A DNA stretch of 14,700 bases from Thermoanaerobacterales bacterium (GTDB lineage: Bacteria; Bacillota; Thermosediminibacteria; Thermosediminibacterales; Tepidanaerobacteraceae): the NCBI GenBank assembly GCA_012841995.1, contig DUTQ01000109.1:1-14700 (forward strand), written 5' to 3'. Shown here piece by piece: positions 1 to 14,700 of the stretch. Made by a program: the position numbers and the translations under genes. Under the pieces are notes generated by a model. It was given only the letters and a program-made list of their open reading frames with translations, did no database searches and was not told the DNA's origin. Position 1 is the first letter of the stretch. The number at the start of each line of letters is the position of its first letter.

Positions 1-44
1 AAATAATAATCTATAGCACATAATACAGTTAGGAGGTTTTGCAC

Positions 45-257
45 ATGTTCATAACAAATGATACCCTTTTAAAAGATGTGGTTGAGTTTTATCCGGAATA
101 TTACGAAGTATTTACACGTTTTAATATAAGATGTTTGTCGTGTTATGGAATGTTAAACAGTACATTACAAGAGTGTGCAGATTTTTATAATATAGATGTA
201 GAAGAATTAAAAAAAGAATTGAAACAGCTTGAGATTCCTCTAGTAGATAAAAGTTAA
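45..257 (+). CDS. DUF1858-type CxxC small protein (hybrid-cluster-protein-associated redox disulfide domain)
   Basis: A 70-residue soluble protein that resembles the DUF1858 family (TIGR03980-like 'redox disulfide' domain). Visible family traits are an N-terminal helix region with the DVVEFYPE element (residues 11-18), then a turn carrying C30-L-S-C33, and a C-terminal IDVEELKKEL helix (50-59). A third cysteine is at position 44. Family members are short, about 60-80 residues, so this one is full length. The CxxC pair is presumed redox-active or metal-binding; no reaction is established for the family. The ATG at 45 is chosen because AGGAGG at 31-36 sits 8 bases before it; the in-frame TTG at 39 is only 2 bases from that site. 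It is followed at once by a hairpin terminator and converges on the decarboxylase gene. Family assignment is fairly sure, function is not. Confidence 0.8.
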   Translation: MFITNDTLLKDVVEFYPEYYEVFTRFNIRCLSCYGMLNSTLQECADFYNIDVEELKKELKQLEIPLVDKS

Positions 258-280
258 GACCTCCATTTGGAGGTCTTATT
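256..280. terminator. Bidirectional hairpin terminator between convergent genes
   Basis: A perfect 9-bp stem (AAGACCTCC at 256-264 with GGAGGTCTT at 269-277, loop ATTT) starts in the stop codon of the small CxxC gene and ends 6 bases before the stop codon of the convergent decarboxylase. Rightward it is followed by ATTTGC, and leftward by a modest T-rich run, so it can serve both genes. The U-tracts are weak, hence moderate confidence. Confidence 0.7.
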
Positions 281-282
281 TG

Positions 283-1785
283 CTAAACAACTCTTACCAT
301 CTTGCGGTAGTATTCTTCTGCATTTTTATCAGCCAGCACTTTTATTACTTTGGCTTGAGGATCCTCGGTGCCTTGAAGGTGGCATCCTTCTTGATTCAAG
401 GCCTTCGCGTATTCTATAACATGGTCTGTTATGCGCTCACCCGGGCAAATTATCGGGATACCCGGAGGATATGCCATAAGCATTTCAGCACTTATTTCCC
501 CTTTTGCATCTTCCAACAAAACCTCACGTTTCTCACTGTAAAAGGCGAATCTGGGGGAAACAACAAGTTCCTGAGACTCGGGCAAATCACATGTAATCTT
601 TACCACATTTTTACGGCTGTGGTTTTTGGCTATATCATCTACAGCTTTAACAAGTGCATCCAAACTTTCTTCATTATCACCTATAGCTCCCACAGCAAGG
701 ACATTGTAAAGGTCTGACAGTTCTACAGCAATATGATAACCGTATCTCAACATCTTTTCCATCTCAAATCCGGATAGCCCCAATTCCCGCACATTTATGG
801 CAAGTTTTGTCTGGTCATAGGCATAGCAACCTTCACTGCCTTCAACATCACGACCCATCACATATATGCCATCGATCCTATTTAGCTTTTTCCTGGCCGT
901 TTCACAGAGCTTTATCGTCTTATCTAGCATAGCTTTGCCGTTTATGGCCATTTGTTTTCTTGCTACATCCAATGAAGCCATTAGAGGGTATGATGGACTT
1001 GTGGTCTGAGTCAAGTTCATGGCTGCTTTTACTTTCCTGTCATCTATTAAATCACTTTTTACAAGCAAAATAGAGCTTTGAGTCATTGATCCAATTAATT
1101 TATGAACACTTGCTGCACTCATGTCAGCCCCAGCCTCCATAGCAGAAAGTGGGAGGTTTGGCGAAAACCCAAAATGAGCACCATGGGCCTCATCCACTAT
1201 AACCGGCTTATCAAAGGAGTGTGCTATTTTAACAATCTCTTTAAGGTCTGATGCCACACCATAGTAGGTGGGGTTTATTACAAATACAGCTTTTGCATTA
1301 GGATGCTCAACAAGGGCCTTCCTTACACTCTCCGGGGTTATGCCCATGGCTATTCCCATATAATCATCTATGACTGGTTCTATATAAATCGGCCTGGCAC
1401 CGCTGAGTATAAGGCCTCCGACGGCCGAGCGGTGTGCATTCCTGGGGAGAATTATTTCATCTCCAGGATTGGCCACAGCAAGTATCATAGCTTGTATTCC
1501 CGCTGTAGTTCCATTCACCAAAAAATGTGCACTATCAGCACCAAATGCTTGTGCCGCTAGCTGCTCTGCCTCTCGAATAACCCCCAATGGGTTACATACT
1601 GTATCCATTTCTAATATCCCTGCGGTAACATCAATAGCCAAAATACTTTTTCCAACAAATTCTTGAAACTCAGGTATCCCCCTGCCGCCTTTGTGTCCAG
1701 GCACATGGAATGAAATAGTGTTTTCGTCCATGTACTTCCTTAAGGCGGCAAACAAAGGCGTTTCCTGCTGTTCTATGAGATTCAT
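283..1785 (-). CDS. speA: Orn/Lys/Arg decarboxylase, SpeA-type (PLP fold type I)
   Basis: A 500-residue pyridoxal-phosphate enzyme of the Orn/Lys/Arg decarboxylase family, colinear from end to end with what I recall of Bacillus subtilis SpeA (arginine to agmatine plus CO2, polyamine synthesis). Landmarks: FHVPGHKGG (26-34) near the N-terminus, VNGTTAGIQAM (90-100) at the cofactor site, DEAHGAH (198-204) with the PLP-nitrogen aspartate and stacking histidine, SVHK (226-229) with K229 as the Schiff-base lysine, and YPPGIPIICPGE (439-450) in the C-terminal domain. The substrate (Arg, Lys or Orn) cannot be fixed from sequence alone. The reading frame stays open for 66 more codons upstream, but those residues do not look like the family. 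The ATG at 1785 has GGGAG 10 bases before it and gives the normal start, MNLIEQQETPLF. It has its own unit, separated from spoIIR by a strong hairpin. Confidence 0.9.
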   Translation of the reverse strand: MNLIEQQETPLFAALRKYMDENTISFHVPGHKGGRGIPEFQEFVGKSILAIDVTAGILEMDTVCNPLGVIREAEQLAAQAFGADSAHFLVNGTTAGIQAMILAVANPGDEIILPRNAHRSAVGGLILSGARPIYIEPVIDDYMGIAMGITPESVRKALVEHPNAKAVFVINPTYYGVASDLKEIVKIAHSFDKPVIVDEAHGAHFGFSPNLPLSAMEAGADMSAASVHKLIGSMTQSSILLVKSDLIDDRKVKAAMNLTQTTSPSYPLMASLDVARKQMAINGKAMLDKTIKLCETARKKLNRIDGIYVMGRDVEGSEGCYAYDQTKLAINVRELGLSGFEMEKMLRYGYHIAVELSDLYNVLAVGAIGDNEESLDALVKAVDDIAKNHSRKNVVKITCDLPESQELVVSPRFAFYSEKREVLLEDAKGEISAEMLMAYPPGIPIICPGERITDHVIEYAKALNQEGCHLQGTEDPQAKVIKVLADKNAEEYYRKMVRVV

Positions 1786-2012
1786 TTGAGTCACACTCCC
1801 TTCCTTTTTTAGGACATTAATTAAAGCACAATACATCGTGAAATGCAGTAAAAATTTCGAAATCCAAACATTAGAATTCCTGCGTTCATCAGCAGATTTC
1901 CAAGGAAAACCATTGAAATCAAATGGCAAAATAAAACTATCACAAATCAATGCTGATTGCAATAGTTTTTCGTAAAAAATCATGAATTATTCAAGAAAAA
2001 AATCAAACACGG

Positions 2013-2074
2013 GAAGAAATGCGGAGACGGTTTTCTTGTTTCCAGAAACAAGAAAACCGTCTCCACATTTCTCT
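2013..2074 (-). terminator. Very long hairpin terminator after spoIIR
   Basis: A 19-bp perfect inverted repeat (2023-2041 with 2046-2064, 4-base loop CCAG) extends past one C-A mismatch by 7 more pairs (2015-2021 with 2066-2072). It begins right after the spoIIR stop codon. Leftward, on the minus strand, the RNA continues with a T-rich stretch (seven T's within 1995-2003) about 10 bases beyond the stem. This fits an intrinsic terminator for spoIIR that insulates the decarboxylase, though the stem is much longer than usual and the T-run is not directly adjacent. Confidence 0.7.
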
Positions 2075-2803
2075 TTATTTGAATGCTATTTTTATGGTCT
2101 TGTTTATCTTACATTTTGCGGTTTTCCACCATTCTACTACTTTAAACCTCACTTCTATCGGAACATCATCTGGATAACTTGCCGTTTGTATTGCATTTAT
2201 TTCTTCTTGGGTAAGGAATTTACTTAATTGTATCTTAGCTTCATCTTTTGGAACACCTCGTGTGATATCTACAAAACACAAAGGTGGAAAAAGCACACAC
2301 CACCAGTTTTTCCCTCCGCCTTCACCTATGATAATGCGCAGCGCCTCGTATTCTCCTGCAGGAAGTGTTACATAGCCGTAAGTTTTAACAGGGAAGGCGA
2401 ATTTTCCAAACAGCGCTTTTACATCGTAATCCTTTCCTTCTTTTTGCACTTCCATTTTTGCAATTTGCTCTATTTCCTTTAGATGGTTTTTTATATACTC
2501 TCTAGACTCCTGGATATCTTCTAGATCCTCAAGCTCATTTTCGATTGCCTTTACTATAGAATCCCTTACTTTGAGCTTTAAAGCCTGGTCTTCTGGTGAA
2601 TCGCTGTTTGCTATAACATGTAGTCTGATAAGCTTCGAAGAAATATCTTGCACGCTTATCTTGTCTTCCTCAATATTTTCAGTTTTTTCAATTGCTCCAC
2701 CTGCTAATCCGCCTTCACTTATTATTGCTGCCAAAAAGGAAATAATAATTATTCCAATGGTCAAAATTGCAGTTTTTTTAATTATGTTAGATGAGCTTTG
2801 CAT
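2075..2803 (-). CDS. spoIIR: Stage II sporulation protein R (forespore signal activating pro-sigma-E processing)
   Basis: A 242-residue SpoIIR family protein. In B. subtilis this protein is made in the forespore under sigma-F, exported to the intermembrane space, and triggers the SpoIIGA protease to process pro-sigma-E in the mother cell. Visible marks: an N-terminal hydrophobic export or anchor segment (about residues 10-29), a short linker, the hallmark IRLHVIANSDSPEDQ (59-73), LPAGEYEALRI (147-157) and the tryptophan/cysteine-rich GKNWWCVLFPPLC (164-176). Length is normal for the family. The ATG at 2803 has GGGAGA at 2811-2816, 7 bases away. A sigma-F-like promoter lies just upstream, and a long hairpin follows the stop. 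It is transcribed divergently from the ACT/UPF0210 pair. SpoIIGA and SigE are not in the window. Confidence 0.93.
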   Translation of the reverse strand: MQSSSNIIKKTAILTIGIIIISFLAAIISEGGLAGGAIEKTENIEEDKISVQDISSKLIRLHVIANSDSPEDQALKLKVRDSIVKAIENELEDLEDIQESREYIKNHLKEIEQIAKMEVQKEGKDYDVKALFGKFAFPVKTYGYVTLPAGEYEALRIIIGEGGGKNWWCVLFPPLCFVDITRGVPKDEAKIQLSKFLTQEEINAIQTASYPDDVPIEVRFKVVEWWKTAKCKINKTIKIAFK

Positions 2804-2834
2804 TACAATCTCTCCCTAAAGAATATCTCCTTTA

Positions 2835-2864
2835 CATTATTCCCAAAATTAAAGAGATATAAAC
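2835..2864 (-). promoter_or_regulatory. Sigma-F-type forespore promoter of spoIIR
   Basis: On the minus strand, GTTTA (2860-2864) is followed by exactly 15 bases and then GGGAATAATG (2835-2844). As I recall the sigma-F consensus of B. subtilis, GYWTA - N15 - GGNNANAHTR, every defined position matches. The transcript would begin near 2828, about 25 bases before the spoIIR ATG, leaving room for the ribosome site at 2811-2816. This agrees with the known forespore expression of spoIIR. It was found by eye, with no scoring done. Confidence 0.72.
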
Positions 2865-2967
2865 ACAAAAAATAAAATAGTGTAAGCTAAAATTCAAAAA
2901 CTATCGGGTATACTTTTCTCAAAAATAAAAACATCTTGATAGGAAGTGTGTTTTATTCTATACTTAC

Positions 2968-2995
2968 TTTATACCTGTTTTATTGATTGTATAAT
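2968..2995 (+). promoter_or_regulatory. Sigma-A-type promoter for the ACT/UPF0210 operon
   Basis: A perfect TATAAT (2990-2995) is preceded 16 bases upstream by TTTATA (2968-2973), four of six matches to the -35 consensus. Transcription would start near 3002, leaving a leader of about 35 bases before the ACT gene. It is divergent from, and clear of, the spoIIR promoter. Confidence 0.6.
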
Positions 2996-3010
2996 GAAAG
3001 GACGGTGTAA

Positions 3011-3030
3011 CCCAGATAATTCTTTCTGGG
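3011..3030 (+). promoter_or_regulatory. Small hairpin covering the ribosome-site region of the ACT gene
   Basis: CCCAGA (3011-3016) pairs perfectly with TCTGGG (3025-3030) across an 8-base loop. The GGGA at 3028-3031 is the only Shine-Dalgarno-like sequence ahead of the ATG at 3038, and it lies in the 3' arm, so folding would hide it. This could lower or regulate translation of the first gene. A six-pair stem this short may also be chance. Confidence 0.4.
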
Positions 3031-3037
3031 AATATAT

Positions 3038-3487
3038 ATGGAAATTCTTATTACCCTTGATGCTTTAAAGAATCGCGAGGGGGAAAAAATATTGCGTTTT
3101 CCTCCAGATACACTTGTTACAAAAGAAGCTAAGATTTATGCAGCTAAAAACCATATAGACATTTATATTGGAGACGAAAAGTTAACACAACCTGTCTATT
3201 TAAATGGAAAGCCTGGCGAAAGGGCTGTGATTTCTGTAATAGGTGAGGATAAAGTCGGAATTATAGCCGGTATCTCGAAGGTGTTTGCCCAGTACAATAT
3301 CAATATCCTTGATATTACTCAAACCGCAATAGAGGGCCTTTTTACAATGATCACAGTTGTAGATATTGCAAAATCCAAAGTTAGCTTTGAAGATCTAAAA
3401 AACAAGCTTTCCGAATGTGGTGCACAGCTCGGAGTTCGAGTTGATGCCCAGAGGGAAGAAGTTTTTCATTACATGCACCGAATTTAG
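3038..3487 (+). CDS. ACT-domain protein (UPF0237 type) with an N-terminal extension
   Basis: 149 residues. The C-terminal part (about 62-149) is a complete UPF0237-like ACT domain: [22 protein letters not shown] (63-84), then [10 protein letters not shown] (87-96) and FTMITVVDI (102-110). ACT domains of this type usually bind amino acids and regulate metabolism, and the family protein is normally only about 90 residues. Here about 60 extra residues precede it. Within them [20 protein letters not shown] (21-40) looks like the short 'ILTPAAKEYAEEHGI' element seen at the N-termini of some cobalamin adenosyltransferase and microcompartment-related proteins; that comparison is from memory. The start is not backed by a strong ribosome site, but no better internal start exists at the usual position, and the extension reads as normal protein. 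It lies 10 bases before the UPF0210 gene, the usual partner. Confidence 0.8.
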
Positions 3488-3497
3488 GAGGATACAG

Positions 3498-4862
3498 ATG
3501 AAATTAACTAGGGATGAAATTATAGAAACAATACGCATGGTGCAATCTGAAAACTTGGATATTAGGACAGTTACGTTGGGTATAAGTCTCAGAGACTGTG
3601 CGGCTAATACGGTTTCAGAAACAGCAGATAAAATTTATACAAAGCTCGTCACAGTAGGGAAAAACCTTGTTTCTACAGCTCGACAGCTTGAGATGGAATA
3701 TGGTATACCTATTATTAATAAGCGCATCTCTGTAACTCCTATAGCCATGGTAGCTGAAAGCTGTAAAGAAACCGACTATGCACCTATTGCAAAAGCCATG
3801 GACCGTGCTGCGAAGCAACTTGGCATTGACTTTATAGGCGGTTTTTCAGCGCTAGTGCAAAAGGGCTTTACAAAGGGCGATATGAATCTATTAAATTCTA
3901 TCCCAGATGCTCTTTCTGTAACCGAACGAGTTTGCTGTTCCGTGAATGTAGCCACAAGCAAGGCAGGAATTAATATGGACGCAGTCAGAGCAATGGGCAA
4001 AATAATTAAAAAAACAGCCAGTTTGACTGCTGATGAAGATGGGCTAGGATGTGCAAAATTGGTTGTATTTGCCAATGCCCCTGAGGATAACCCCTTTATG
4101 GCCGGCGCATTTCACGGGCCCGGTGAGCCGGAAGCCACAATAAATGTAGGTATAAGCGGCCCTGGTGTCGTCAATACCGTTATACGCCGCCTGCCCAAGG
4201 AAGCCGATATTGGTGAGGTCTCTGAGACAATCAAAAAGATGGCCTTTAAGATTACCCGTGTGGGCGAACTTATTGGAAGAGAGGCTGCCAGAAGGCTTGG
4301 GGTTCCATTTGGCATCATTGACCTTTCACTTGCTCCAACTCCTGCGGTAGGAGATAGTATCGCAAATATCCTGGAAGCCATAGGTCTAGAGCGTTGTGGC
4401 GCTCCAGGCACCACTGCAACCCTTGCACTTTTAAACGATGCTGTTAAAAAAGGCGGTGCCATGGCTACTTCTTACGTAGGAGGGCTTTCTGGAGCTTTTA
4501 TCCCCGTGAGTGAAGATGCAGGCATGATAAGGGCAGTCATGGATGGTGCCCTTTCCCTTGAAAAATTAGAAGCAATGACATGTGTATGCTCTGTAGGTCT
4601 TGATATGATAGCTGTTCCCGGAGATACAACAGAGGAAACAATATCGGCAATCATTGCAGATGAAATGGCCTTAGGCGTTATAAATAAAAAGACTACGGCA
4701 GTTAGGATTATTCCAGCACCAGGTAAAAAAACCGGTGACTTTGTAGAATTTGGTGGTTTGCTTGGAAGGGCACCTGTTATGCCTGTCAATACATTTGATC
4801 CGTCTGTCTTTGTGCGGCGCGGAGGACAAATTCCCCCACCAATACAGAGTATGACAAATTAA
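3498..4862 (+). CDS. UPF0210 / DUF711 family protein (PFL-like fold)
   Basis: 454 residues, the normal length for the UPF0210 (DUF711) family, whose known structures have a pyruvate formate-lyase-like barrel. Family stretches seen: the N-terminal [20 protein letters not shown] (7-26), [12 protein letters not shown] (112-123), [19 protein letters not shown] (205-223), [19 protein letters not shown] (274-292), [20 protein letters not shown] (300-319) and the glycine-rich [10 protein letters not shown] (325-334). I see no glycyl-radical RVxGY motif, so it is not expected to be a glycyl-radical enzyme. Its reaction is unknown. The ATG at 3498 follows AGGAGG (3486-3491) by 6 bases; the frame is open farther upstream, but that part overlaps the ACT gene. 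The same ACT-UPF0210 pairing occurs in many Gram-positives, for example pneumococcus, which suggests that the ACT protein senses a ligand for this partner. Confidence 0.88.
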
Positions 4863-4887
4863 ACAAAAAAAATTTTTCGAAAAGCCC

Positions 4888-4915
4888 TTGATTTTATTTA
4901 AAAACCTGATAGAAT
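4888..4915 (+). promoter_or_regulatory. Promoter of the T-box/aminotransferase unit
   Basis: TTGATT (4888-4893) and an extended -10 element TGATAGAAT (4907-4915) are separated by the proper 16 bases between hexamers. Transcription would start about 4922, some 20 bases before the T-box RNA begins. A second TATAAT at 4916-4921 lacks a well-placed -35. No convincing terminator is visible between the UPF0210 stop and this promoter, so some read-through from the upstream operon is possible. Confidence 0.55.
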
Positions 4916-4942
4916 TATAATTAATCTAATTATATTGTAAAT

Positions 4943-5160
4943 AAAAGTGATGATGGAGAAGAAGAAAAAACTGACGCCATAAAGAGAGCCGGGATGGTGG
5001 GAAACGGCAGGCAAAGTTTTTCGGGCCGCTCCGAAGCTGTAGGCTGAAATCAGAAGTAAGCCGCGCCGGTTTTTCCGTTATAAAAATGAGGTGGAGCTTT
5101 TGCTCAACCAGGGTGGTACCGCGAGATAAACCTCGTCCCTTTTTGGGGCGAGGTTTTTTG
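4943..5160 (+). promoter_or_regulatory. T-box riboswitch, predicted tRNA-Ala specific (specifier GCC)
   Basis: A complete T-box leader. Stem I: GGAG (4955-4958) pairs with CTCC (5029-5032), and AAAAACT (4966-4972) with AGTTTTT (5015-5021). Between them is the specifier loop, left side AAGAAGA and right side CGGGCCG (5022-5028). By the usual geometry (specifier, one purine, then the lower stem) the codon is GCC at 5025-5027, alanine. The AGAGAGC element and GGTGGGAAA loop are at 4984-5004. The T-box AGGGTGGTACCGCG is at 5110-5123, and its variable base T would pair with discriminator A73, correct for tRNA-Ala. Antiterminator: AGGG/CCCT (5110-5113/5137-5140) and CGAG/CTCG (5122-5125/5132-5135). 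Binding of uncharged tRNA-Ala should stabilise this and let transcription proceed. A small gagc-tttt-gctc hairpin (5094-5105) precedes the switch. Confidence 0.88.
5131..5159 (+). terminator. First T-box terminator
   Basis: CCTCGTCCC (5131-5139) pairs with GGGGCGAGG (5145-5153) over nine pairs including one G-U, followed by six T's (5154-5159). Its 5' arm holds both strands needed by the antiterminator, so the two structures are mutually exclusive. This is the default off-state when tRNA-Ala is charged. Confidence 0.9.
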
Positions 5161-5216
5161 GATCTTGTCCTTACTTTTAAACATGGCGGTTATTGCTTGA
5201 TTTATGGTTTGGCATC

Positions 5217-5272
5217 TGCTCAATTAGGGTGGTACCGCGGATCCCGTCCCTTTTTTAAGGGGCGGGTTTTTT
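5217..5272 (+). promoter_or_regulatory. Second T-box antiterminator/terminator module without Stem I
   Basis: A second perfect T-box, AGGGTGGTACCGCG (5226-5239), lies 116 bases after the first. TGCTCAA is repeated at the same 9-base offset before each (5101 and 5217). The antiterminator helices are intact: AGGG/CCCT (5226-5229/5248-5251) and CGG/CCG (5238-5240/5244-5246). A terminator follows: CCCGTCCC (5243-5250) with GGGGCGGG (5259-5266) and six T's (5267-5272). The 57 bases between the first terminator and this module (5160-5216) hold no Stem I, specifier loop or AGAGAG element. The variable T-box base is again T (A73 tRNA). It may be a partial duplication, or the remnant of a second full T-box, that still forms a working switch. 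The aminotransferase ATG is 71 bases farther on. Confidence 0.85.
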
Positions 5273-5343
5273 GTTTATAAATTGTTTTAGTTTATTTAGT
5301 AAACAAGAAAAATAAAATTTCTTTTCATACAGGAGGAATAATA

Positions 5344-6522
5344 ATGCGAATTTCAAGTGTAGTAAATAGCATAAAACCTTCCGGAATAAGGCGTTTCTTT
5401 GATTTGGCTGAAAAGGACCCTGATGTAATATCACTTGGTGTTGGTGAACCGGATTTTGTAACACCAGAAGTTATCTTACAAGCTGCGCAAAAGAGTATTG
5501 ATGAGGGATTTACCCATTATACATCAAATGATGGGATGTTCTTACTTCGGGAAAAGATATCAAAATACCTTAAGACCAAATTCGGTCTAGAGTATAAGCC
5601 GGAAACAGAGATGATAATAACAGTAGGAGCCAGTGAGGCTGTGGATGTGGCTCTTACAACATTAGTTTCACCTGGAGATGAGGTCCTCATCCCTGAACCT
5701 TGTTTCGTATCATATGGGCCATGTACACAGTTGTGTGGCGGAAAAGCTGTATTTGTGCCTACCAGCGCAGAAAATGACTTTAAATTAACTGTTGATCAAT
5801 TGGAAAAATATGTAACGTCAAAGACCCGGGTCCTGTTTATCTCATATCCTAACAATCCAACTGGCGCTATTATGGAGAAAAATGACCTTGAACCTATAGC
5901 TGATTTTGTGATAAAACACGACCTTGCAGTAATATCTGATGAGATATATGGCGAGCTCACTTACGGTAAAAAACATTTTAGTATTGCATCACTACCTGGA
6001 ATGAAAGAGAGGACCTTTTTTATAGGAGGGTTTTCAAAGTCATTTGCTATGACTGGCTGGCGCATTGGTTTTTTATGCGGACCGAATGATGTAATCCAGG
6101 CTGCCCGAAAGATTCACCAATACCGCATTATGTGCCCGCCTACCATCAGCCAAGTGGCAGCAATAGCTGCAATAGACAAGGGCGAGTTGGATGCAAGGCG
6201 AATGGTAGATGAGTATGAACGCAGGCGAAGAGTCATTTGCAGTGGTTTTAAAGATATCGGTCTTGAACTTTCAGAGCCTAAAGGAGCATTTTATGTCTTT
6301 CCTTCAATACAAAAGACAGGGCTTTCAAGTGAGGAATTTGCCGAAAATCTTATTATAAAGTCAAAGGTTGCGGTTGTTCCGGGAAATGCCTTTGGCCCAA
6401 GTGGTGAAGGGTTCGTCAGATGCTCTTATGCCACATCTTTAGAAACAATCTACGAGGCCCTCAATCGCATAGATGATTTCCTTTCCCACATAAAGCCCCG
6501 AAAGGCCGGATCTCAATCATAA
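5344..6522 (+). CDS. Class I aminotransferase (AAT-I fold), predicted alanine-forming
   Basis: A 392-residue PLP aminotransferase of class I/II, of normal length and with all key residues. GEPDF (35-39) is near the N-terminus and YPNNPTGA (168-175) carries the PLP-ring-contacting asparagine. SDEIYGEL (198-205) holds D199, which contacts the pyridine nitrogen, and Y202. SKSFAMTGWRIG (231-242) has the Schiff-base lysine K232 and phosphate-binding R240. FVRCSY (357-362) has R359, which binds the substrate carboxylate. It belongs to the broad aspartate/alanine/aromatic (AspC/PatA/YugH-like) group, where specificity cannot be read from sequence. The alanine specifier in its leader argues for synthesis of alanine from pyruvate. 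AGGAGG (5331-5336) lies 7 bases before the ATG. It is a single-gene unit controlled by two serial T-box terminators. An alternative is a broad-range transaminase placed under alanine control. Confidence 0.9.
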   Translation: MRISSVVNSIKPSGIRRFFDLAEKDPDVISLGVGEPDFVTPEVILQAAQKSIDEGFTHYTSNDGMFLLREKISKYLKTKFGLEYKPETEMIITVGASEAVDVALTTLVSPGDEVLIPEPCFVSYGPCTQLCGGKAVFVPTSAENDFKLTVDQLEKYVTSKTRVLFISYPNNPTGAIMEKNDLEPIADFVIKHDLAVISDEIYGELTYGKKHFSIASLPGMKERTFFIGGFSKSFAMTGWRIGFLCGPNDVIQAARKIHQYRIMCPPTISQVAAIAAIDKGELDARRMVDEYERRRRVICSGFKDIGLELSEPKGAFYVFPSIQKTGLSSEEFAENLIIKSKVAVVPGNAFGPSGEGFVRCSYATSLETIYEALNRIDDFLSHIKPRKAGSQS

Positions 6523-6562
6523 AGTAAAGATGATGGCAGCTCTCCAAATCAAGATCTGTTAT

Positions 6563-6675
6563 TGTAGGGAACGGTCAAAAACCGTTCCCTACACCGTTCC
6601 CTACATGGTCTGCACGATGCAGGGGTTCACGGGCAATTTGGCATCCCGTGTGAATATCTTGGAACCGTCCCTAAA
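6563..6675. repeat. REP-like inverted and direct repeat cluster in a convergent spacer
   Basis: TGTAGGGAACGGT (6563-6575) and its perfect inverse ACCGTTCCCTACA (6581-6593) form a 13-bp hairpin with loop CAAAA. CCGTTCCCTACA is then repeated directly at once (6594-6605). A related ACCGTCCCTA lies at 6664-6673, and a weaker inverted repeat (TTCACGGG at 6626-6633 with CCCGTGTGAA at 6645-6654) sits between them. No T-run follows either hairpin, so these are not ordinary terminators. GGGAACGGT/GGGACGGTTC units recur as dispersed repeats in several clostridial genomes, from memory. Mobilised REP-type DNA is the best guess, and it may also block read-through between the converging genes. Confidence 0.6.
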
Positions 6676-6681
6676 TATTCA

Positions 6682-8214
6682 TTAATAATTTATAATTCTG
6701 TCCTTGAAATCCTTTTTCAAATCTTTTTGAAGATAAGTTATAAAGCGATTTAAGAATGCGGCTGCCTCGCCTTTAGTCATGGGATCACTTGGGCGAAAAT
6801 AACCTGCCATATCACCTCGAGCAAGGCCTATTTGCCTTGCCACATACACTGAATCTCTTGCCCATGCTGGGATCTCACAATCATCAGCAAACCCAGTGTC
6901 ATATGGGGGATTTGGGGCAAGATGTTCCAAACCAAGGGCCCTTATCATGATTGTTATTGCTTGATCCCTAGTTAAGACCTGGTCTGGGCCAAAACGTTTT
7001 GGCCCTATTCCCTGCATGACTCCGGTAGATGCCAGATTTTCTAAATAAACCATGTCCTTATCAGATATATCACTAAAAGGAGTTTCCTCTTGTGGCAATG
7101 CCTCACCTTTTTTTTGTGCCACATTCTTTTTCACATCAGCTATGGCCTTGCCGCGGTTTATAATATCAGTCACCTTTGCAACTCCTTGGGCAAATGTCAA
7201 CCTTTTAGCGTAAACATGTGGGCCAAAATAACTGCCTTTTGGCTCCATAATGCCTAAACTCAAAAGCCTTTCAATATCCTCTTGCGCCCAGTGTCCCGGC
7301 ACATCTAATGTTTTGGGAATAAAGGTCCTTTTCTGTGTGGGTACAGTTGAAAGCTTTAACTCTACATCGTCTTTTAAAAATTCACTTTTCAAAGGTATGC
7401 CTTTTTGATCAAATCGAGGCAGGCTGTAGCTATATCTTGCTACCTGTTCATCTTGTATAGTTTCAAGATATCCGCCACGAAAGCTAATTTGAGACGGCTC
7501 ATTTGGTATATATGTGAGGTCCCGTGTTGTGTTAAAAGATTCCACTACCTGCATACTGCCATTCCAGTCAGCGGAATAAACGCTTTCTTCTATGGCCTTT
7601 TCCCCTTTATAATCGATCAAGTAGTCAAGTGTTACAGTTTCAGTGGCACCCCAAACGTGTTCATACCCTACACCAGAGCCGTTTATTTCTACAGATAGTT
7701 CCCCTTCATCTCGGTTTACGCTGTATAACTTTTTACCTCTTATATTCAAAGAATAGTAATCTACTGCTGGAGCCATGTCTGTGATAGTAGAAGAGTATAG
7801 TTCACATTTTTCCAGCTTATATCTGTCTGAGCGCCGACCTTCACCCTTTACAGTTATACTCTCACTAAAGCGGGTTAATTCGGATACAGTTATGTACTGC
7901 CGTTTTTTTGTATCTTCCTCCAAGCTTACCTCAAATGTCATATTTCTGCGAAGAGATATATTCTTGTCGTCGCTTTCCAATGTAAAGTTTACCCTGTCTT
8001 GCCTTTTTCCTTTTCGCATTGTCCCTTCGTTTATCTTGATATCCCCCTTCAATATGACGGGCTTACCTGTCAGTACAAAAAGCTCCTTGTATTCCATATC
8101 GTTTTTTATTCCACCATCATATCCGGGCATCTGTATAGCATAAGCTGTATTTGGCAAGCCAATGCAAAGGGATAAGCATATAATTATTAATTTTACAGGT
8201 AATGTTCGGTGCAA
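6682..8214 (-). CDS. Secreted protein with three C-terminal SLH domains
   Basis: 510 residues. A signal peptide (1-26, hydrophobic core about 9-20) ends at AYA. Residues 27-300 are beta-rich, with aromatic landmarks such as GYEHVWGATETVTLDY (183-198); I do not recognise a named domain. Three SLH repeats follow, at about 303-350 (VPGHWAQEDIERLLSLGIM), 379-430 (FSDISDKDMVYLENLASTGV) and 441-490 (FADDCEIPAWARDSVYVARQ). These bind pyruvylated secondary cell-wall polymer and fix the protein to the surface. The start is TTG at 8214, the first possible start after an in-frame TAG 15 codon-bases upstream, with a GGGAAGTGG site 4 bases away; it gives a sensible signal peptide. It is the last gene of the surface cluster, 54 bases after the preceding stop. 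The N-terminal part is probably the exposed functional domain; its ligand is unknown. Confidence 0.88.
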   Translation of the reverse strand: MHRTLPVKLIIICLSLCIGLPNTAYAIQMPGYDGGIKNDMEYKELFVLTGKPVILKGDIKINEGTMRKGKRQDRVNFTLESDDKNISLRRNMTFEVSLEEDTKKRQYITVSELTRFSESITVKGEGRRSDRYKLEKCELYSSTITDMAPAVDYYSLNIRGKKLYSVNRDEGELSVEINGSGVGYEHVWGATETVTLDYLIDYKGEKAIEESVYSADWNGSMQVVESFNTTRDLTYIPNEPSQISFRGGYLETIQDEQVARYSYSLPRFDQKGIPLKSEFLKDDVELKLSTVPTQKRTFIPKTLDVPGHWAQEDIERLLSLGIMEPKGSYFGPHVYAKRLTFAQGVAKVTDIINRGKAIADVKKNVAQKKGEALPQEETPFSDISDKDMVYLENLASTGVMQGIGPKRFGPDQVLTRDQAITIMIRALGLEHLAPNPPYDTGFADDCEIPAWARDSVYVARQIGLARGDMAGYFRPSDPMTKGEAAAFLNRFITYLQKDLKKDFKDRIINY

Positions 8215-8268
8215 AAAACCACTTCCCGTCTATTATAGCTATTTATTAAAGTTAAAACCTAGCATGTT

Positions 8269-10827
8269 CTATTCTTCAATGACTATTCCTATTAGTACTT
8301 CATTGTTATTCCTTATTATATAGAGCTTATCTTTTAACTTTAAGTCATTTTGTTTGATAAATTGATCACCCTTTATTAAGAGTGCCTTTGACATATCAAG
8401 CTCAAGAGATGTCAAGTCATTATTCCATTCTCTTCTAAAGCCACTGTAATCTTTGGCATTATTGAGGACAATTTGCAAGTCATTGTCTTTCAAAAGAGCC
8501 AATTCCCCTATAGATATACTTGGGGTTTCAACTTCATCTTTGAGAATTAATATTCCCTCTACCTTGTCATTTTTAGTGACTAAGTAGGTGTACTTGTTGT
8601 AGTATTCTTGCTCAAACCTGTCCTTTTTAAAGTCATCAAGAGATACATGCTTTGGCGCCTTTCCTATAGCATCGATTATATATACATCATCTTTAAAATC
8701 AAAGTATTTATGTGAATCCCTTGTTTTTGACCATTTATTGCCTTCTAATCGATTGTATTCATCTATTGACAGTTCTTTGTTTGTTATCTCATCTATATAT
8801 CCCCGATAGAATTGCAAATCTGAATCATAGAACTCAGTTTGTATCATGGCAACAACCCTATTTGTATCGCCTTCATCGTTTGTGATCAAAAACACATCTT
8901 CTTCATCATCGATATCAGCAGCATCGCATATTTGTCTGCCCACAACTGTAAGGGTATCCTGACCAAAGTATCCCTCCACCCTGCCTGTTTCAATAAAGCC
9001 TTCAGACCATCTTATCTCTTCGATTTCTCCGTTTACACTGTATTCATCACCAGATTTAACAACTATTTTTTCTGCTTGATTTTCTCCAAAATCACTTTTA
9101 TTTAGTATATAAATATAATCCCCTTTGTGGTTTTGATAAAGCTGTTTTATATCTATGAGCTCGCCACAATAGTAGGCAGTTGCACCGTCAGATACGGCTA
9201 GTTTTCCGGAGGCCATCTCTTTTATCCAGCTTCCGTAGTAAAATCGGTTTATATCTTCAATGATTAACTCGCTATTAGAAAAGCCTCCGCTTATGCGAGC
9301 CTTTAAAATGTTTTTGGCTGTACTCGTCTTTGCTACCGCAATCCTATCGGCCACGCCCTTATCCAAGACACTGAAATAGGCGATTATCCTGTCTCCAATG
9401 CGCAAATCCCTTACATCTTGAGTAGTGTTTGCCTTAATAATTCGGGTATGAGGCCCTACAGCAAAGGACTCTTCTCTTCCGTTTGGCAATGATACCGTGA
9501 TGTTGTAATAATCATCATCCTTTTCAACAGATTTTACCCTTCCTTCTATATTGAGGCTCTCTTTGGCAATATACCCTGGTTCACTACCGCTACTTGCAAC
9601 AAGCCCTCGAAGCATCCCGCCAACAACCTTTGCGGTAACCTCTTGACCTTCTACAAGGTCAAATATATTCGACGGCCTGCCATCTATACTCACTTCTACA
9701 TTTTGATTTGCACTATACTCATAAACCCTTCCGCTTTCACCTTTGATCACAACAGTATTTGTTTGTTCATCAAGACTCATAAGTTCTCCTCTAATCTGCA
9801 TTCCCGAGACATTTATCACTTCAGCAAATACAACTTCACCGTCTTTGACGGCATATTCTATGAAATCCCCAGGGGATAATGCATAGGAAAGTAAAACTTC
9901 ACCATTTTTTAAAACTATAAAATCCCTGTGGGTCCTCTCCCATCCGTTTAAGATTGTATCTTCGGCCTTTAAGTTAAACCTCTCACCATTTAAATCCTCT
10001 ATTTCAAAGACCGTACAGCTTGAACTAGTCCCTTCGTCAACAAACTTAAGGGGGTATGATGAAAGCAATTTGCCTTGATGCACTTCATACCCACTTGGAA
10101 AATCGTATTTTACGCGGTCAAGCACTGATGCCAACTCGGCTCTTGTCATGGGGTCGTTTGGCCTTATTTTGTTGCCATCTCCAGATATAATTTTATGCTG
10201 TATTGCAGCTGATAGATAAGGGCAATAATCCGAACTGATCTTGTTTGAATCAGAAAACCTTGATATTTCCTGGTTTCTGCCATAAAGAGGTGTGAGCTTT
10301 AACGCTCGTGCCGTCCATGCTGCCACCTCCTGACGCAAGGCTGCTCCTTGCCACATCATGCCTTGCCTTTCATTTTTCGTAATTACACCCTCTTGCTGGG
10401 CAACTTCAAGGTAGCCGTATGCCCATTGGGAAAAATTCGCCCTTTTACCGCCTATGCCAGACTTTCTGCCGGATGCAGCATTTATCTTTTGCGCATCTTC
10501 ATCCCTGCCCATAAGCCTCACAATGGCGGTAATGGCCTCTTCCCGAGAAACCCAGGCATTTGGGGCAGGCTTTTTGTCCCGACCTTTCAAGACAGAAAGT
10601 GCTCCCATCCTAATCATGGGAACTCTCGCCCAATGCCATTTTACATCACTTGCTCTGAGGTTTGACGATAGCCTGTCGGCATAATTTACGCCTACAAAAC
10701 TGGGCACATCAGCTAAAGCTGTAAATGCTATCATATTCGAAAGCAAAACTATAACAACAAACAAAGCCAGGGCCTTTATCAAAAAGGACCTTCGGGTTTT
10801 CCTATTTGTATCCTCAAAAATTAGCAA
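8269..10827 (-). CDS. Secreted protein with three N-terminal SLH domains and a long beta-rich body
   Basis: 852 residues. A basic N-terminus (RKTRRS, 9-14), a hydrophobic core (about 17-38) and TALA/D suggest signal peptide cleavage after residue 39. Three SLH-like units follow, at about 58-107, 130-178 and 189-240; the last, with ISGDGNKIRPNDPMTRAELA (214-233), is the clearest and the first two are divergent. From 250 to the end are irregular repeats of beta modules, for example LNGERFNLKAEDTIL (279-293), IRGELMSLDEQTNTVVIKGE (345-364), IEGRVKSVEKDDDYYNITV (427-445) and the paired DLxxGxxxxA elements (390-399, 474-483). They resemble the repeated small domains that fill large S-layer proteins. 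No catalytic motif is evident. The start is TTG at 10827, with GGGGGT 7 bases upstream and an in-frame TAA two codons before; the site overlaps the stop region of the TIG gene (12-base gap), implying coupled translation. Confidence 0.88.
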   Translation of the reverse strand: MLIFEDTNRKTRRSFLIKALALFVVIVLLSNMIAFTALADVPSFVGVNYADRLSSNLRASDVKWHWARVPMIRMGALSVLKGRDKKPAPNAWVSREEAITAIVRLMGRDEDAQKINAASGRKSGIGGKRANFSQWAYGYLEVAQQEGVITKNERQGMMWQGAALRQEVAAWTARALKLTPLYGRNQEISRFSDSNKISSDYCPYLSAAIQHKIISGDGNKIRPNDPMTRAELASVLDRVKYDFPSGYEVHQGKLLSSYPLKFVDEGTSSSCTVFEIEDLNGERFNLKAEDTILNGWERTHRDFIVLKNGEVLLSYALSPGDFIEYAVKDGEVVFAEVINVSGMQIRGELMSLDEQTNTVVIKGESGRVYEYSANQNVEVSIDGRPSNIFDLVEGQEVTAKVVGGMLRGLVASSGSEPGYIAKESLNIEGRVKSVEKDDDYYNITVSLPNGREESFAVGPHTRIIKANTTQDVRDLRIGDRIIAYFSVLDKGVADRIAVAKTSTAKNILKARISGGFSNSELIIEDINRFYYGSWIKEMASGKLAVSDGATAYYCGELIDIKQLYQNHKGDYIYILNKSDFGENQAEKIVVKSGDEYSVNGEIEEIRWSEGFIETGRVEGYFGQDTLTVVGRQICDAADIDDEEDVFLITNDEGDTNRVVAMIQTEFYDSDLQFYRGYIDEITNKELSIDEYNRLEGNKWSKTRDSHKYFDFKDDVYIIDAIGKAPKHVSLDDFKKDRFEQEYYNKYTYLVTKNDKVEGILILKDEVETPSISIGELALLKDNDLQIVLNNAKDYSGFRREWNNDLTSLELDMSKALLIKGDQFIKQNDLKLKDKLYIIRNNNEVLIGIVIEE

Positions 10828-10839
10828 GATTTATACCCC

Positions 10840-13800
10840 CTATCTACCAAAAAGCCCATAAAAACCTGATTTGTTGATATATCCGCTTGGCCAGTAATAT
10901 GTGGGTGGTAAACCGCCCTGATAATAGCCTGTTGTTTCTTCCCATTTTCTGCTTACCGGTTCAAAGCTACACAATCTGATGGAAGAAATCATCTTTTTCT
11001 TCGTCAGTTCATAATCTGCTTCCATCTCCAGCCATCCTGAAAAATAGTCTATAACCCGTTTTTCATTTGCTACTTGGCATTCCATTTTTATATTTATTAC
11101 ATCAGACACGATGATATCCTCTTTTTGTTTAAATCTCATCAAGTAATCCCGCTGAGCCTTATCGGCCCTTTCAATTATAATTTTAATTGCAGAATCCTCT
11201 TTTTCTTCGTTGGTAAGACTTCCAAACCTGTCTAGATTGGATTTTGTAAAACGCAAATTAAATCCTTCAGCTGAAATTGCAAGTTCCCTGTTCATTCTCC
11301 TAATAGCTTCATAGGAAATGGTCACAGTATATCTTGGATACGGCAAGGCACCTTTTGAAAACAGTTTTACATGATAGCTTAAATCCTTTAATCCATCCAC
11401 ATCCATTATATTGACATCCGCACCGGTGGATGTTATGCCTTCCCTCTTATCTTTGGGCACTTCCACAAGTTTTTCTTCACGCCCCCGGTCTGTTTCAGCT
11501 GAATCTGTATTAGAAAAATCAGATACTCCCAGTTCGTTTACAGCCCGCACTTTAAAATAGTACTTGGTATTTGGCTCAAGGTCTGTCACATAAAAATGGG
11601 TATTTGTGCATTTATCTATATAGCTAAAATCGTCACTTCTTTTCTTTGAACCGAATATCTCATACTGGTTTGCATTCAGTGCAGGTGACCAGGAAAGCTC
11701 TATTGTTGTTTTATCATAGCACCTTGCTATTAAATTTTCAGGTGCATCTGGCTTTGTCCGGGGAGGGATGTAGTAAAAACCGTCTTTGAGGACTGCCTGC
11801 CCTCCATCGGGATTAATGACCATTACATCCTTATAGCCAAAGCTGTTTGCAGGTGTCTTGGCCTTTATAGTAGTTTCACTGGTCACTTGTATATTTGTAG
11901 CTGCCTTGCCACCGATTATGACAACAGCCCCCTGGTGAAACAACTCTCCTGTTATAGTAATGTCAGTTCCACCTTCTACCGGGCCTTCTGCTGGTTCTAC
12001 AGATTGAATCTTGGGATAATCTATATATGTGAAACCGCCTTCCAGAATGTCAAGGCCTGTATCAGGGTTTATTACGATGACATCCTTTTCTCCCAACGAG
12101 CCCTCCGGCAGCTTTATTCTTATATGAGCAGGATCAGCCACAAGTACTTCTGCCATGTTTTCACCAATATACACAATTGCACCTGTCTTAAAGTTACTTC
12201 CATAGATATTGACTTCTATGCCCCCATATGAAGGGCCTTTCGCCGGTTCAACCTCGGTTATCTTGGGATAGCCATCAGGCACCTTGTATAAAAATGCCTT
12301 TGGCAGTGCTGCGCTAAGCCCATTGCCATTTAAGACAACTACATCTTTTTTGCCTTGGGTATTTGGCGGTGTCCTGCCTACTATGGTATTATCATCTATG
12401 GCAGTGCACATCTTGGCCTCTACTCCCCCAAAATATACAGTCACAGGGTTTTTAAAGCCCTTGCCTTTAATGGTAAATGGTGTGCCTCCTGATACTGCCC
12501 CTTGGGTAGGCGTTATGGAGAAAAGTTCTATTTCACCTGTTACATCTATATATTCAAAACCGTCCTTAAGTATTGCCAAGCCCTGGTCAGGATTTATCAC
12601 CCGCACATCCTTTTTGCCTTTTGTTTGTGCTGGTGTAATGGCAGATATTTTGTTTCCGGAAACAAATGATGTGCCCTGCTGTTGGTTGCCTTCCCCATCC
12701 ACCATATTGCCTGTTTCATCTTCAATGGAAACCACCTGGGCTTCAGCGCCGCCTATCATAACTTTGGCACAAGGTCTGAAGTCGGCACCTTCTATGGTAA
12801 TATACGTTCCACCAGATACCGGCCCTTTTGGCGGAAATACACCAATTATCTTTGGACGGCTTTCCGGAACAACATAGGAAAACTTCCCATCCCAAATGGC
12901 AAGGCCGCCATCGGGGTTTATGGCAATCACATCTACCTCATATTTGCCGTCTTCCGGTGTATCTCCGTGACCTGGTACGTATTCAGGGGTTATAGCGGTG
13001 ATAAGCGTTCCTGTTTCATCGATATTTACATCTTTGGCCTCAACACCGCCGAACAAGACCTTTACACCTTTCACAAAGTTTTTGCCTGTTATCTTCACAA
13101 ATGTCCCGCCAAATATAGTTCCGCTAGTAGGGTTTACATCAGTGATTTCGGGTATCGTATCTGGCGGTACATACTCAAAGCCTTGTTTTAATGTAAATAT
13201 GCCCCCATCTTCATTTACTACAGTTACATCTTTCTTGCCATAGGTTTTAGCCTCGGGAGTTTTAATCCGTATTTCTGTTGGGCTGATGAGATTAACGTCA
13301 CTCTTCTTTACCTCAATCCCACCTATTATGACGGAAATATTTTGCCTGAAGTCCTTCCCTGTTATGGTAACAGGTGTCCCGCCTTCAGAGCTTCCTCGGT
13401 TTGGCTCCACCTTTGTTATTATCGGGCTGCTCCTTGGCACCATATATGTAAAGCCTTTTTCTTTAACTGCAAATCCACCGTCACTTGCATTTATTACGTA
13501 AACATCACAATCTCCTTCCTTACCGGCTGGAGTTTTTGCAGTAATGGTGGTGTTATCAATAACCCTTACATCTGTTGCAAAGTTATCCCCGATTACAACA
13601 AGGGCATCTTGCATAAAATCCTTACCTGTTATAGTGATATCCACTCCGCCTGTAACAGGCCCTCGATTTGGCGTTATAGTGTGAATTTCAGGGTTTGTAT
13701 TGACTTCTTTATACAAAAAGGCATTCTCTTTTTTCCCTGTTCCTTTATCAGGGTTTGTTATTACAAGGTCTACATAACCGGTCTTTTCGTCAGGGATTTT

Positions 13801-14700
13801 AGGTGCTATTGCCTTGATTTTTGTGTCACTTATTACCTTTACATTTTCAAGTGATATGCCCTCTTGACCTGTTATATCTCCTACAAACTTTACATCTGCA
13901 CCTGTCATGAAGTTTTGCCCGCTTATTTCAATAAATACTCCACCTTTAGCAGGACTGCGATTCGGTTTTACATCCGTGATTATTGGATTTGTCTTATACG
14001 TAAAACCTTTTTCAAGTGTAGCTGTTCCCCCGTCATCATTTATTACCGTCACATCTGCCTTGCCCGGGATTCCTGGAGGCGTCTTTGCAGTTACCTTTGT
14101 TGGACTTATTACTTTTACATCAGTGGCTTGGTTCCCCCCGATTAAGAGCTTGAAGTTTGGGCCGCTCATAAAGTTTGTCCCTGTCACCGCTATATTATCA
14201 CCACCTGCCGCACTCCCTTCATCAGGATCAATTTTCGTTATAGTAGGAGTGCTTTGGTCCACATAGTATAAAAATGCGTTTTTAAGTGTATAGCTTCCAT
14301 ATTTGTTATATGCCACCACATCTTTTAGGCCTGGGGTATTTGGCGGGATCGTTAATGTAATAACTGTTGTATCTACAACTTTTATATCTAAAGCGGCCTC
14401 ACCTCCGATAGTGACCTGTGTTCCATCTATGAAATTAGCGCCTGTCAGTGTTGCACTAGTCCCTCCTGATACGCTGCCGGTATTTGGCGTAATGCTTGTG
14501 AGGATTAAGTTGTTTCCCTTATATATAAATCCTGCTGGGAGTATTGTTTCCCCGCCGTCAGGGTTGACTACTCGTACATCACAAGCTCCAACCCGGGTAC
14601 TTTTAGGCGAGATAGTTGTAATAAGCCCTGAGCTTATTACATCGACAATTGCTGCTTTTGTATCACCAAAATACACGAATTTCATGTCAAAGTCCGGCGA
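10840..14700 (-). CDS. Giant IPT/TIG-repeat surface protein with Fn3 and novel C-terminal domain (5' end outside window)
   Basis: The reading frame is open to the right edge, so the true start lies outside. The ATG at 14685 sits inside a repeat (in-frame residues SPDFD precede it) and is not a start. About 1286 residues are visible. There are ten complete and one partial IPT/TIG repeats of about 85-107 residues, each with the pattern P-x-I-x-x-V-x-P-x-x-G, G-G-T-x-V-x-I-x-G-x-x-F, I-G-G/F-G-G-x-x-A, T-P and DVxVxNPDGG...GFxY. TIG units are immunoglobulin-like folds; long arrays make rod-like adhesive or structural surface proteins. A fibronectin type III domain follows (11485-11757; APENL, NQYEI, YYFKVRAVN), then about 214 residues of unrecognised C-terminal domain ending in SGFYGLFGR. 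No SLH domain is seen in this part; an anchor may lie in the missing N-terminus or be supplied by the SLH partners encoded downstream. Probably first in the cluster as seen. Confidence 0.9.
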   Translation of the reverse strand, partial: SPDFDMKFVYFGDTKAAIVDVISSGLITTISPKSTRVGACDVRVVNPDGGETILPAGFIYKGNNLILTSITPNTGSVSGGTSATLTGANFIDGTQVTIGGEAALDIKVVDTTVITLTIPPNTPGLKDVVAYNKYGSYTLKNAFLYYVDQSTPTITKIDPDEGSAAGGDNIAVTGTNFMSGPNFKLLIGGNQATDVKVISPTKVTAKTPPGIPGKADVTVINDDGGTATLEKGFTYKTNPIITDVKPNRSPAKGGVFIEISGQNFMTGADVKFVGDITGQEGISLENVKVISDTKIKAIAPKIPDEKTGYVDLVITNPDKGTGKKENAFLYKEVNTNPEIHTITPNRGPVTGGVDITITGKDFMQDALVVIGDNFATDVRVIDNTTITAKTPAGKEGDCDVYVINASDGGFAVKEKGFTYMVPRSSPIITKVEPNRGSSEGGTPVTITGKDFRQNISVIIGGIEVKKSDVNLISPTEIRIKTPEAKTYGKKDVTVVNEDGGIFTLKQGFEYVPPDTIPEITDVNPTSGTIFGGTFVKITGKNFVKGVKVLFGGVEAKDVNIDETGTLITAITPEYVPGHGDTPEDGKYEVDVIAINPDGGLAIWDGKFSYVVPESRPKIIGVFPPKGPVSGGTYITIEGADFRPCAKVMIGGAEAQVVSIEDETGNMVDGEGNQQQGTSFVSGNKISAITPAQTKGKKDVRVINPDQGLAILKDGFEYIDVTGEIELFSITPTQGAVSGGTPFTIKGKGFKNPVTVYFGGVEAKMCTAIDDNTIVGRTPPNTQGKKDVVVLNGNGLSAALPKAFLYKVPDGYPKITEVEPAKGPSYGGIEVNIYGSNFKTGAIVYIGENMAEVLVADPAHIRIKLPEGSLGEKDVIVINPDTGLDILEGGFTYIDYPKIQSVEPAEGPVEGGTDITITGELFHQGAVVIIGGKAATNIQVTSETTIKAKTPANSFGYKDVMVINPDGGQAVLKDGFYYIPPRTKPDAPENLIARCYDKTTIELSWSPALNANQYEIFGSKKRSDDFSYIDKCTNTHFYVTDLEPNTKYYFKVRAVNELGVSDFSNTDSAETDRGREEKLVEVPKDKREGITSTGADVNIMDVDGLKDLSYHVKLFSKGALPYPRYTVTISYEAIRRMNRELAISAEGFNLRFTKSNLDRFGSLTNEEKEDSAIKIIIERADKAQRDYLMRFKQKEDIIVSDVINIKMECQVANEKRVIDYFSGWLEMEADYELTKKKMISSIRLCSFEPVSRKWEETTGYYQGGLPPTYYWPSGYINKSGFYGLFGR
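11763..14700 (-). repeat. Array of eleven IPT/TIG protein repeats
   Basis: Repeat boundaries, counted from the codon at 14685 as residue 1, fall at about 1-60 (partial), 61-144, 145-230, 232-327, 330-417, 419-508, 510-607, 609-715, 717-803, 804-888 and 889-975. The fourth, seventh and eighth units are longer than the rest. The seventh has an inserted acidic loop (about 569-583), and the eighth has a Gly/Gln/Asn-rich loop (about 655-677). The repeats differ clearly from one another in residues, so the array is old rather than a recent tandem expansion. Confidence 0.85.

Follow-up and report, generated by a model that had tools for sequence, protein, structure and literature searches.

T-box leaders containing duplicated terminator-antiterminator elements are said to have been described by Vitreschak et al. 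in 2008 (RNA 14:717). The subject of this text is a leader of this kind, situated 5' of a class I/II aminotransferase gene on a stretch of 14,700 nucleotides (nt) from a Thermoanaerobacterales bacterium (assembly GCA_012841995.1, contig DUTQ01000109.1, positions 1 to 14,700), the whole of which is referred to as the window. In the part of PMC12452182 available to us, tandem T-boxes are treated as complete units: fully tandem T-boxes comprise at least two complete sensor and regulatory domains and are expected to behave in a digital, pseudo-cooperative manner, and lower leak together with a steeper response is expected of complete tandem riboswitches. The same source deals with tandem aptamers of the glycine riboswitch type, which are followed by a single expression platform. 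Partially tandem T-boxes, in turn, combine one Stem I sensor with two terminator/antiterminator modules and an amino-acid gene, and the accessible text of PMC7583486 presents them as a known class whose working is unexplained. Nothing on this class was found in the accessible parts of PMC2494555 and PMC7778990, the latter of which leaves models for tandem T-boxes still to come.

The aminotransferase leader is a partially tandem T-box, with one Stem I and two complete terminator/antiterminator modules. It has two terminators in series in common with fully tandem T-boxes, so that the same serial logic would be expected, but it has only one codon reader. With the glycine riboswitch type it has a repeated element within one leader in common, although the arrangement is the reverse, a single reader being followed by two platforms. 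Module 1 belongs in full to the transcriptional T-box riboswitch family (Rfam model RF00230), whereas module 2 has the T-box motif, with the bulge placed in an antiterminator that faces a competing terminator, and is devoid of Stem I, Stem II and specifier. The preliminary description had regarded a second module without Stem I as a departure from the known tandem T-boxes; this was not supported, since no class-level difference from the partially tandem T-boxes, as far as the accessible text of PMC7583486 describes them, was found, the particulars here being a second module without the RRRxG purine motif and a linker of 65-198 nt between terminator 1 and motif 2 in five orthologous leaders. 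The leader thus adds one more case to a known class, and its architecture is not unique. Its parts are the following:

4941..5143, plus strand: complete T-box leader (Stem I, Stem II, Stem IIA/B, Stem III, antiterminator 1), matched by RF00230
5025..5027, plus strand: specifier GCC (Ala), assigned by visual comparison with the RF00230 alignment
5089..5107, plus strand: Stem III belonging to module 1, preceded by RRRxG (AGGTG) and followed by AA
5110-5123, plus strand: T-box motif 1, exact AGGGTGGTACCGCG
5110..5140, plus strand: antiterminator 1, helix A1 5110-5113 with 5137-5140, helix A2 5121-5125 with 5132-5136 (5 base pairs (bp), the first G.U), -8.6 kcal/mol
5128..5159, plus strand: terminator 1 and U run, -20.9 kcal/mol
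5160..5225, plus strand: linker, with a short Stem III-like hairpin at about 5211-5220 and AA at 5222-5223, without RRRxG
5226-5239, plus strand: T-box motif 2, exact AGGGTGGTACCGCG
5226..5251, plus strand: antiterminator 2 around a 7-nt bulge, A1 5226-5229 with 5248-5251, A2 5237-5240 with 5244-5247 (4 bp, the first G.U), -5.9 kcal/mol
5243..5272, plus strand: terminator 2 (stem 5243-5266) and U run, -18.6 kcal/mol
5344..6522, plus strand: regulated gene, class I/II aminotransferase (PF00155), from Pfam match and sequence

The match to RF00230 reaches 107.4 bits (E 2.1e-23), above the gathering score of 93, and covers 4941-5143 only, while the motif is found in two exact copies in the window; with up to two mismatches allowed the number of matches remains 2, where 0.12 would be expected by chance, and 2 of 200 shuffles contained two or more. 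Among the 10 RF00230 matches of the genome, which is fragmented (1.71 Mb in 385 contigs, 84% complete), two exact motifs are present only at the aminotransferase leader. No Stem I lies between the modules, because the 66-nt linker is far too short for a sensor part, which takes 161-170 nt in this leader and its orthologues, and because it contains no RF00230 match. The linkers of the relatives G004, G008 and G002 likewise gave no match; that of G009 gave a weak one of 30.5 bits in which Stem I is largely deleted. A sensor of its own for module 2, which would make the leader fully tandem, was looked for in the window and in the orthologous leaders, and none was found. The anatomy announced by the preliminary description, two terminator switches at the positions it gave and two acceptor-end modules served by one codon reader, was therefore confirmed.

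Orthologues of the aminotransferase were sought in 61 genomes at a protein identity of at least 70%, which left five leaders, namely the one in the window and those of G009, G004, G008 and G002, the next-best matches having 57% identity. All five contain the second exact motif, at 116, 247, 147, 112 and 130 nt from the first, and among 22 genomes of the order only these five have closely spaced motif pairs. The mean pairwise identity of the five leaders is 0.890 for module 1 and 0.901 for module 2 (44-47 nt), compared with 0.774 for the sensor part and 0.719 for the first 300 nt of the gene; it falls to 0.172 in the linker (0.168 when shuffled) and to 0.247 between terminator 2 and the gene (0.228 when shuffled), and is 0.585 in the 20 nt before motif 2 (0.268 when shuffled). 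The bulge of module 2, UGGUACC, belongs neither to an antiterminator helix nor to the terminator stem, and is nonetheless unchanged in all five. Judged by these alignments, module 2 is under selection and not decaying, since it is as conserved as module 1 while the linker is at the level of shuffled sequence; selection had been suggested in the preliminary description, and the drift in relatives that it had named as a sign of a remnant was looked for and is not seen in these leaders. Because the linker varies in length, no fixed geometry relative to Stem I is needed. The end of the upstream DUF711 gene is common to four of the five leaders and was not seen in the G004 stretch.

Two further observations concern the linkers. 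That of G009 (L050:1145-1325) harbours a dispersed repeat some 27 nt long, with module 2 intact behind it; the repeat has 6 matches in G009, itself included, 18 in G002, 1 in G004 and 1 in the genome of the window. The linkers of G002 and G004 look alike by eye, and neither is among these matches.

The two modules are not equal in what precedes them. All five orthologous leaders have RRRxG ahead of the Stem III of module 1 and none has it ahead of module 2, which weighs against equivalent modules, and AA is found directly before the T-box motif in both modules of all five. When the 65 nt before each motif were compared, 16 of 300 shuffles were as good in the leader of the window and 8 of 300 in G004, a weak similarity, and in G009, G008 and G002 the similarity was not above that of shuffles. 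The linker as a whole duplicated sensor end was accordingly rejected.

The architecture is more widespread than the five orthologues. When the contigs of the genome collection were scanned for pairs of exact motifs separated by 85-115 nt (99-129 nt from start to start), 36 places were returned. In 33 of them an RF00230 match with one Stem I covers module 1 or runs through it; 22 of these are at or over the gathering score and 11 are below it (47.8 to 90.5 bits, E at most 2e-7). Two places (L026 and L034) were dropped as unrelated repeats without a T-box match and one (L033) for its unsequenced spacer and a score of 36.0 bits. With exact motifs and fixed spacing the scan gives a lower bound, and three of the five orthologous leaders are outside or unlisted. 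The covariance model linked the single Stem I of L045 with module 2, from which it follows that the modules are much alike. According to Pfam, the first genes behind the 33 leaders are DAHP synthase (7), chorismate mutase alone (2), lysA-type decarboxylase (3), semialdehyde dehydrogenase (2), branched-chain permease (3), periplasmic binding protein (3), sodium:solute symporter (4), and, once each, acetolactate synthase small subunit, a LeuA-type protein, class III aminotransferase, a radical SAM protein, a LarA-type protein and class I/II aminotransferase (L041), with 3 genes being without a Pfam match. An aminoacyl-tRNA (transfer RNA) synthetase is the first gene in none of the 33; the excluded L033 precedes prolyl-tRNA synthetase.

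Together with the leaders of the window, G009, G004 and G002, the scanned leaders, in which that of G008 is included as L041, make a set of 37. The antiterminator geometry is present in every second module and in all but one of the 37 first modules (4.7 and 5.2 of 37 in shuffled tails), taking the candidate with the most pairs, which is unfavourable in energy in five instances (module 1 of L024, L028, L035 and L040; module 2 of L030). A terminator was found in 36 second and all 37 first modules. Every leader also forms the fourth A2 pair in module 2, with six pair types, and this pair had not been a condition of the search. When the nearest antiterminator candidate is taken instead, the first A2 pair is identical between the modules in 35 of 37 leaders, and in the window it is G.U in both; according to the accessible part of PMC7583486, this pair, when G.U, is the primary steric sensor of the 3'-aminoacyl tRNA. 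The RRRxG motif precedes Stem III in 23 first and 9 second modules (3.4 and 2.2 when shuffled), again at odds with equality of the modules, and AA stands beside the best hairpin in 26 and 24 (5.7 and 4.0 when shuffled).

Some individual leaders of this set have peculiarities of their own. Six leaders (L012, L031, L037, L038, L039 and L045) have the sequence CC(C/T)GTACC in the linker, immediately 5' of the Stem III of module 2; in four of them (L031, L037, L039 and L045) it also precedes module 1, and the duplicated unit of these four lineages seems to extend further 5'. L015 (L015:395-738) has, in addition to a T-box at 395-596, a partial match limited to Stem I just upstream (645-738, 33 bits), and another T-box at 2305-2508.

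Regarding the tRNA, the specifier GCC and the T-box base U, which fits A73, point to tRNA-Ala, as had been proposed from the window sequence. The specifier stretch TCGGGCCGCTCC is identical in the five orthologous leaders and reads GCC, with one base left before the closing helix; tRNA-Ala(GGC) of G004 ends in A73-CCA, and U is present in both bulges of the window. Discriminator bases were taken from G004, the incomplete genome of the window having given 4 tRNA matches, none of them tRNA-Ala. A frame-shifted specifier, GGC for Gly, would call for a bulge with A and is excluded, because the T-box base U does not fit U73 of the G004 tRNA-Gly. The bulge base is U in both modules of 32 of the 33 scanned leaders and C, then U, in the remaining one, so that comparing T-box bases is uninformative as to whether both modules use the same tRNA. 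Roughly a quarter of the motif matches in the order carry C or A at this base (hand count); that U is in excess is plainly explained by the A73 amino acids which most tandem leaders serve. When specifiers were sought with a regular expression, UUC (Phe) was among the candidates in 11 of 37 leaders, and most others gave nothing reliable. The sole scanned leader with differing bulges (L011:182-520) has specifier UUC (Phe), C in bulge 1 and U in bulge 2; this C does not pair with A73, and tRNA-Phe of G004 has A73.

We propose, with a probability of roughly 0.6, that the leader would apply two termination checks in series, module 2 being a maintained second check that would lower the leak and steepen the response to alanine starvation, most likely via tRNA-Ala. 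The single Stem I/II would read the anticodon of tRNA-Ala, and transcription would have to pass two terminators one after another. At each module an uncharged acceptor end (NCCA) would pair with the T-box bulge (UGGU) and favour the antiterminator, and with charged tRNA or no tRNA the terminator would form. The second check would most likely come from a tRNA-Ala, either the one held on Stem I, after release of its 3' end from module 1, or a second one. We infer this function from the preserved sequence: the retained bulge argues that module 2 would bind NCCA, the missing purine motif argues that this binding would be weak or helped (e.g. by a tRNA held on Stem I), and module 2 is very likely functional and probably a working second checkpoint.

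Several results weigh against this proposal. Of the two antiterminators, the second is the weaker one (-5.9 vs -8.6 kcal/mol), and the T-box base U suits any A73 tRNA, that is 15 of the 26 tRNAs tabulated from G004. The check proposed earlier, conservation together with covariation of module 2, came out favourably in its first half and thinly in its second: terminator 2 has one compensatory pair (U-A to C-G, in the leader of the window), a score reached by 93 of 500 shuffles, and antiterminator 2 is invariant in the five leaders, with no compensatory pair among them. In the family alignment of terminator 2, 98% of cells are paired, against at most 66% when it is slid.

Among the other explanations, terminator 2 may be a second brake without tRNA sensing of its own, which merely lowers the leak of terminator 1 and whose bulge was inherited from a duplication. 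The missing Stem III purine motif before module 2 in the five orthologous leaders, the weak antiterminator 2 and the strong terminator 2 (-18.6 kcal/mol) would all fit such a brake, but we consider it unlikely, since a bare terminator requires neither the bulge, which is unchanged in all five although the adjoining linker is at shuffled level, nor the antiterminator 2 pairing present in 37 of 37 leaders. Furthermore, a tRNA-independent terminator would block expression during starvation in proportion to its own strength.

Quite unlikely is a direct pairing of the two motifs, in which an unoccupied T-box 1 would pair with T-box 2 and block antiterminator 2 until tRNA on module 1 frees T-box 2, so that module 2 would read the state of module 1 and not free tRNA. 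The candidate partners, known from prediction only, are:

5113..5122, plus strand: GUGGUACCGC of module 1, candidate partner of 5229-5238
5229..5238, plus strand: GUGGUACCGC of module 2, candidate partner of 5113-5122

With U as the variable base, as in both bulges of all but one scanned leader, the motif is self-complementary over a stretch of 10 nt, and the two 14-mers form a 10-bp duplex of -19.2 kcal/mol, compared with -12.0 for A/A, -16.6 for C/C and -16.1 for G/G, although U/U follows from A73 tRNAs too. When the 5' half of T-box 2 has been transcribed, the predicted pairing probability is 0.94 in the leader of the window (0.59 if the full leader is folded), 0.80 in G009, 0.99 in G004 and 0.84 in G002, but 0.00 in G008, and once antiterminator 2 is complete it is 0.49, 0.32, 0.51 and 0.53 in the first four (0.72 in the full leader of the window). 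Shuffled linkers still average 0.52, so that the motif itself accounts for the pairing, with no sign of selection, and it gives no account of how antiterminator 2 would hold against a stronger terminator without tRNA. Highly doubtful, finally, is the model in which such crosstalk would force termination at terminator 2 and so let module 2, which has no codon reader, proofread transcription that has leaked past module 1; this proofreading cis logic by cross-paired motifs is not known from T-boxes, and literature searches yielded no description of it.

That module 2 is a decaying remnant of a duplication or an assembly error is extremely improbable, because, although it lacks Stem I, has a degenerate Stem III region and is preceded by sequence weakly similar to that before module 1, it occurs in five separate genomes at 0.901 identity over 44-47 nt between unalignable flanks, the same architecture recurs in 33 of 36 scanned places, and very recent copying is countered by the 66-70% nucleotide identity of the gene start in the window to the four others.

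The two modules lie between an ACT-domain gene and a DUF711 gene on the 5' side and the class I/II aminotransferase gene, whose inferred substrate would agree with the alanine specifier, on the 3' side. The features nearby are:

3038-3487: ACT-domain open reading frame, preceding the DUF711 open reading frame
3417-4862: DUF711 open reading frame, whose listed GTG start falls inside the ACT-domain open reading frame
4888..4915, plus strand: promoter-like site TTGATT-16-TAGAAT with TG ahead of the second hexamer, from a consensus scan only
5331-5336, plus strand: AGGAGG 5' of the aminotransferase start, from the sequence

The true start of the DUF711 gene is probably a later ATG, the family match beginning only at residue 31-40. 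The promoter-like site is weak (2 sites in the region vs 1.1 in shuffles by the consensus scan) and would tentatively put the start of the leader near 4922. Elsewhere in the window, a long inverted repeat at 2003-2082, between genes of the spoIIR type and the Orn/Lys/Arg decarboxylase type, attracts chance Rfam matches (microRNA, small nucleolar RNA) on either strand and probably represents the hairpin of a terminator or a repeat, and three large genes with SLH and TIG/IPT domains on the minus strand (6682-14685) form a surface-protein cluster.

With one sensor and two intact platforms, a nearly constant module 2 and a linker that has diverged beyond alignment and differs in length, the family of aminotransferase leaders provides a clean case for the partially tandem T-boxes. 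This leader family lets one ask whether a module may sense tRNA without a Stem I of its own, whether one tRNA may be checked twice, or whether base pairing between the modules may take part, and the 33 collected leaders serve as independent replicates.
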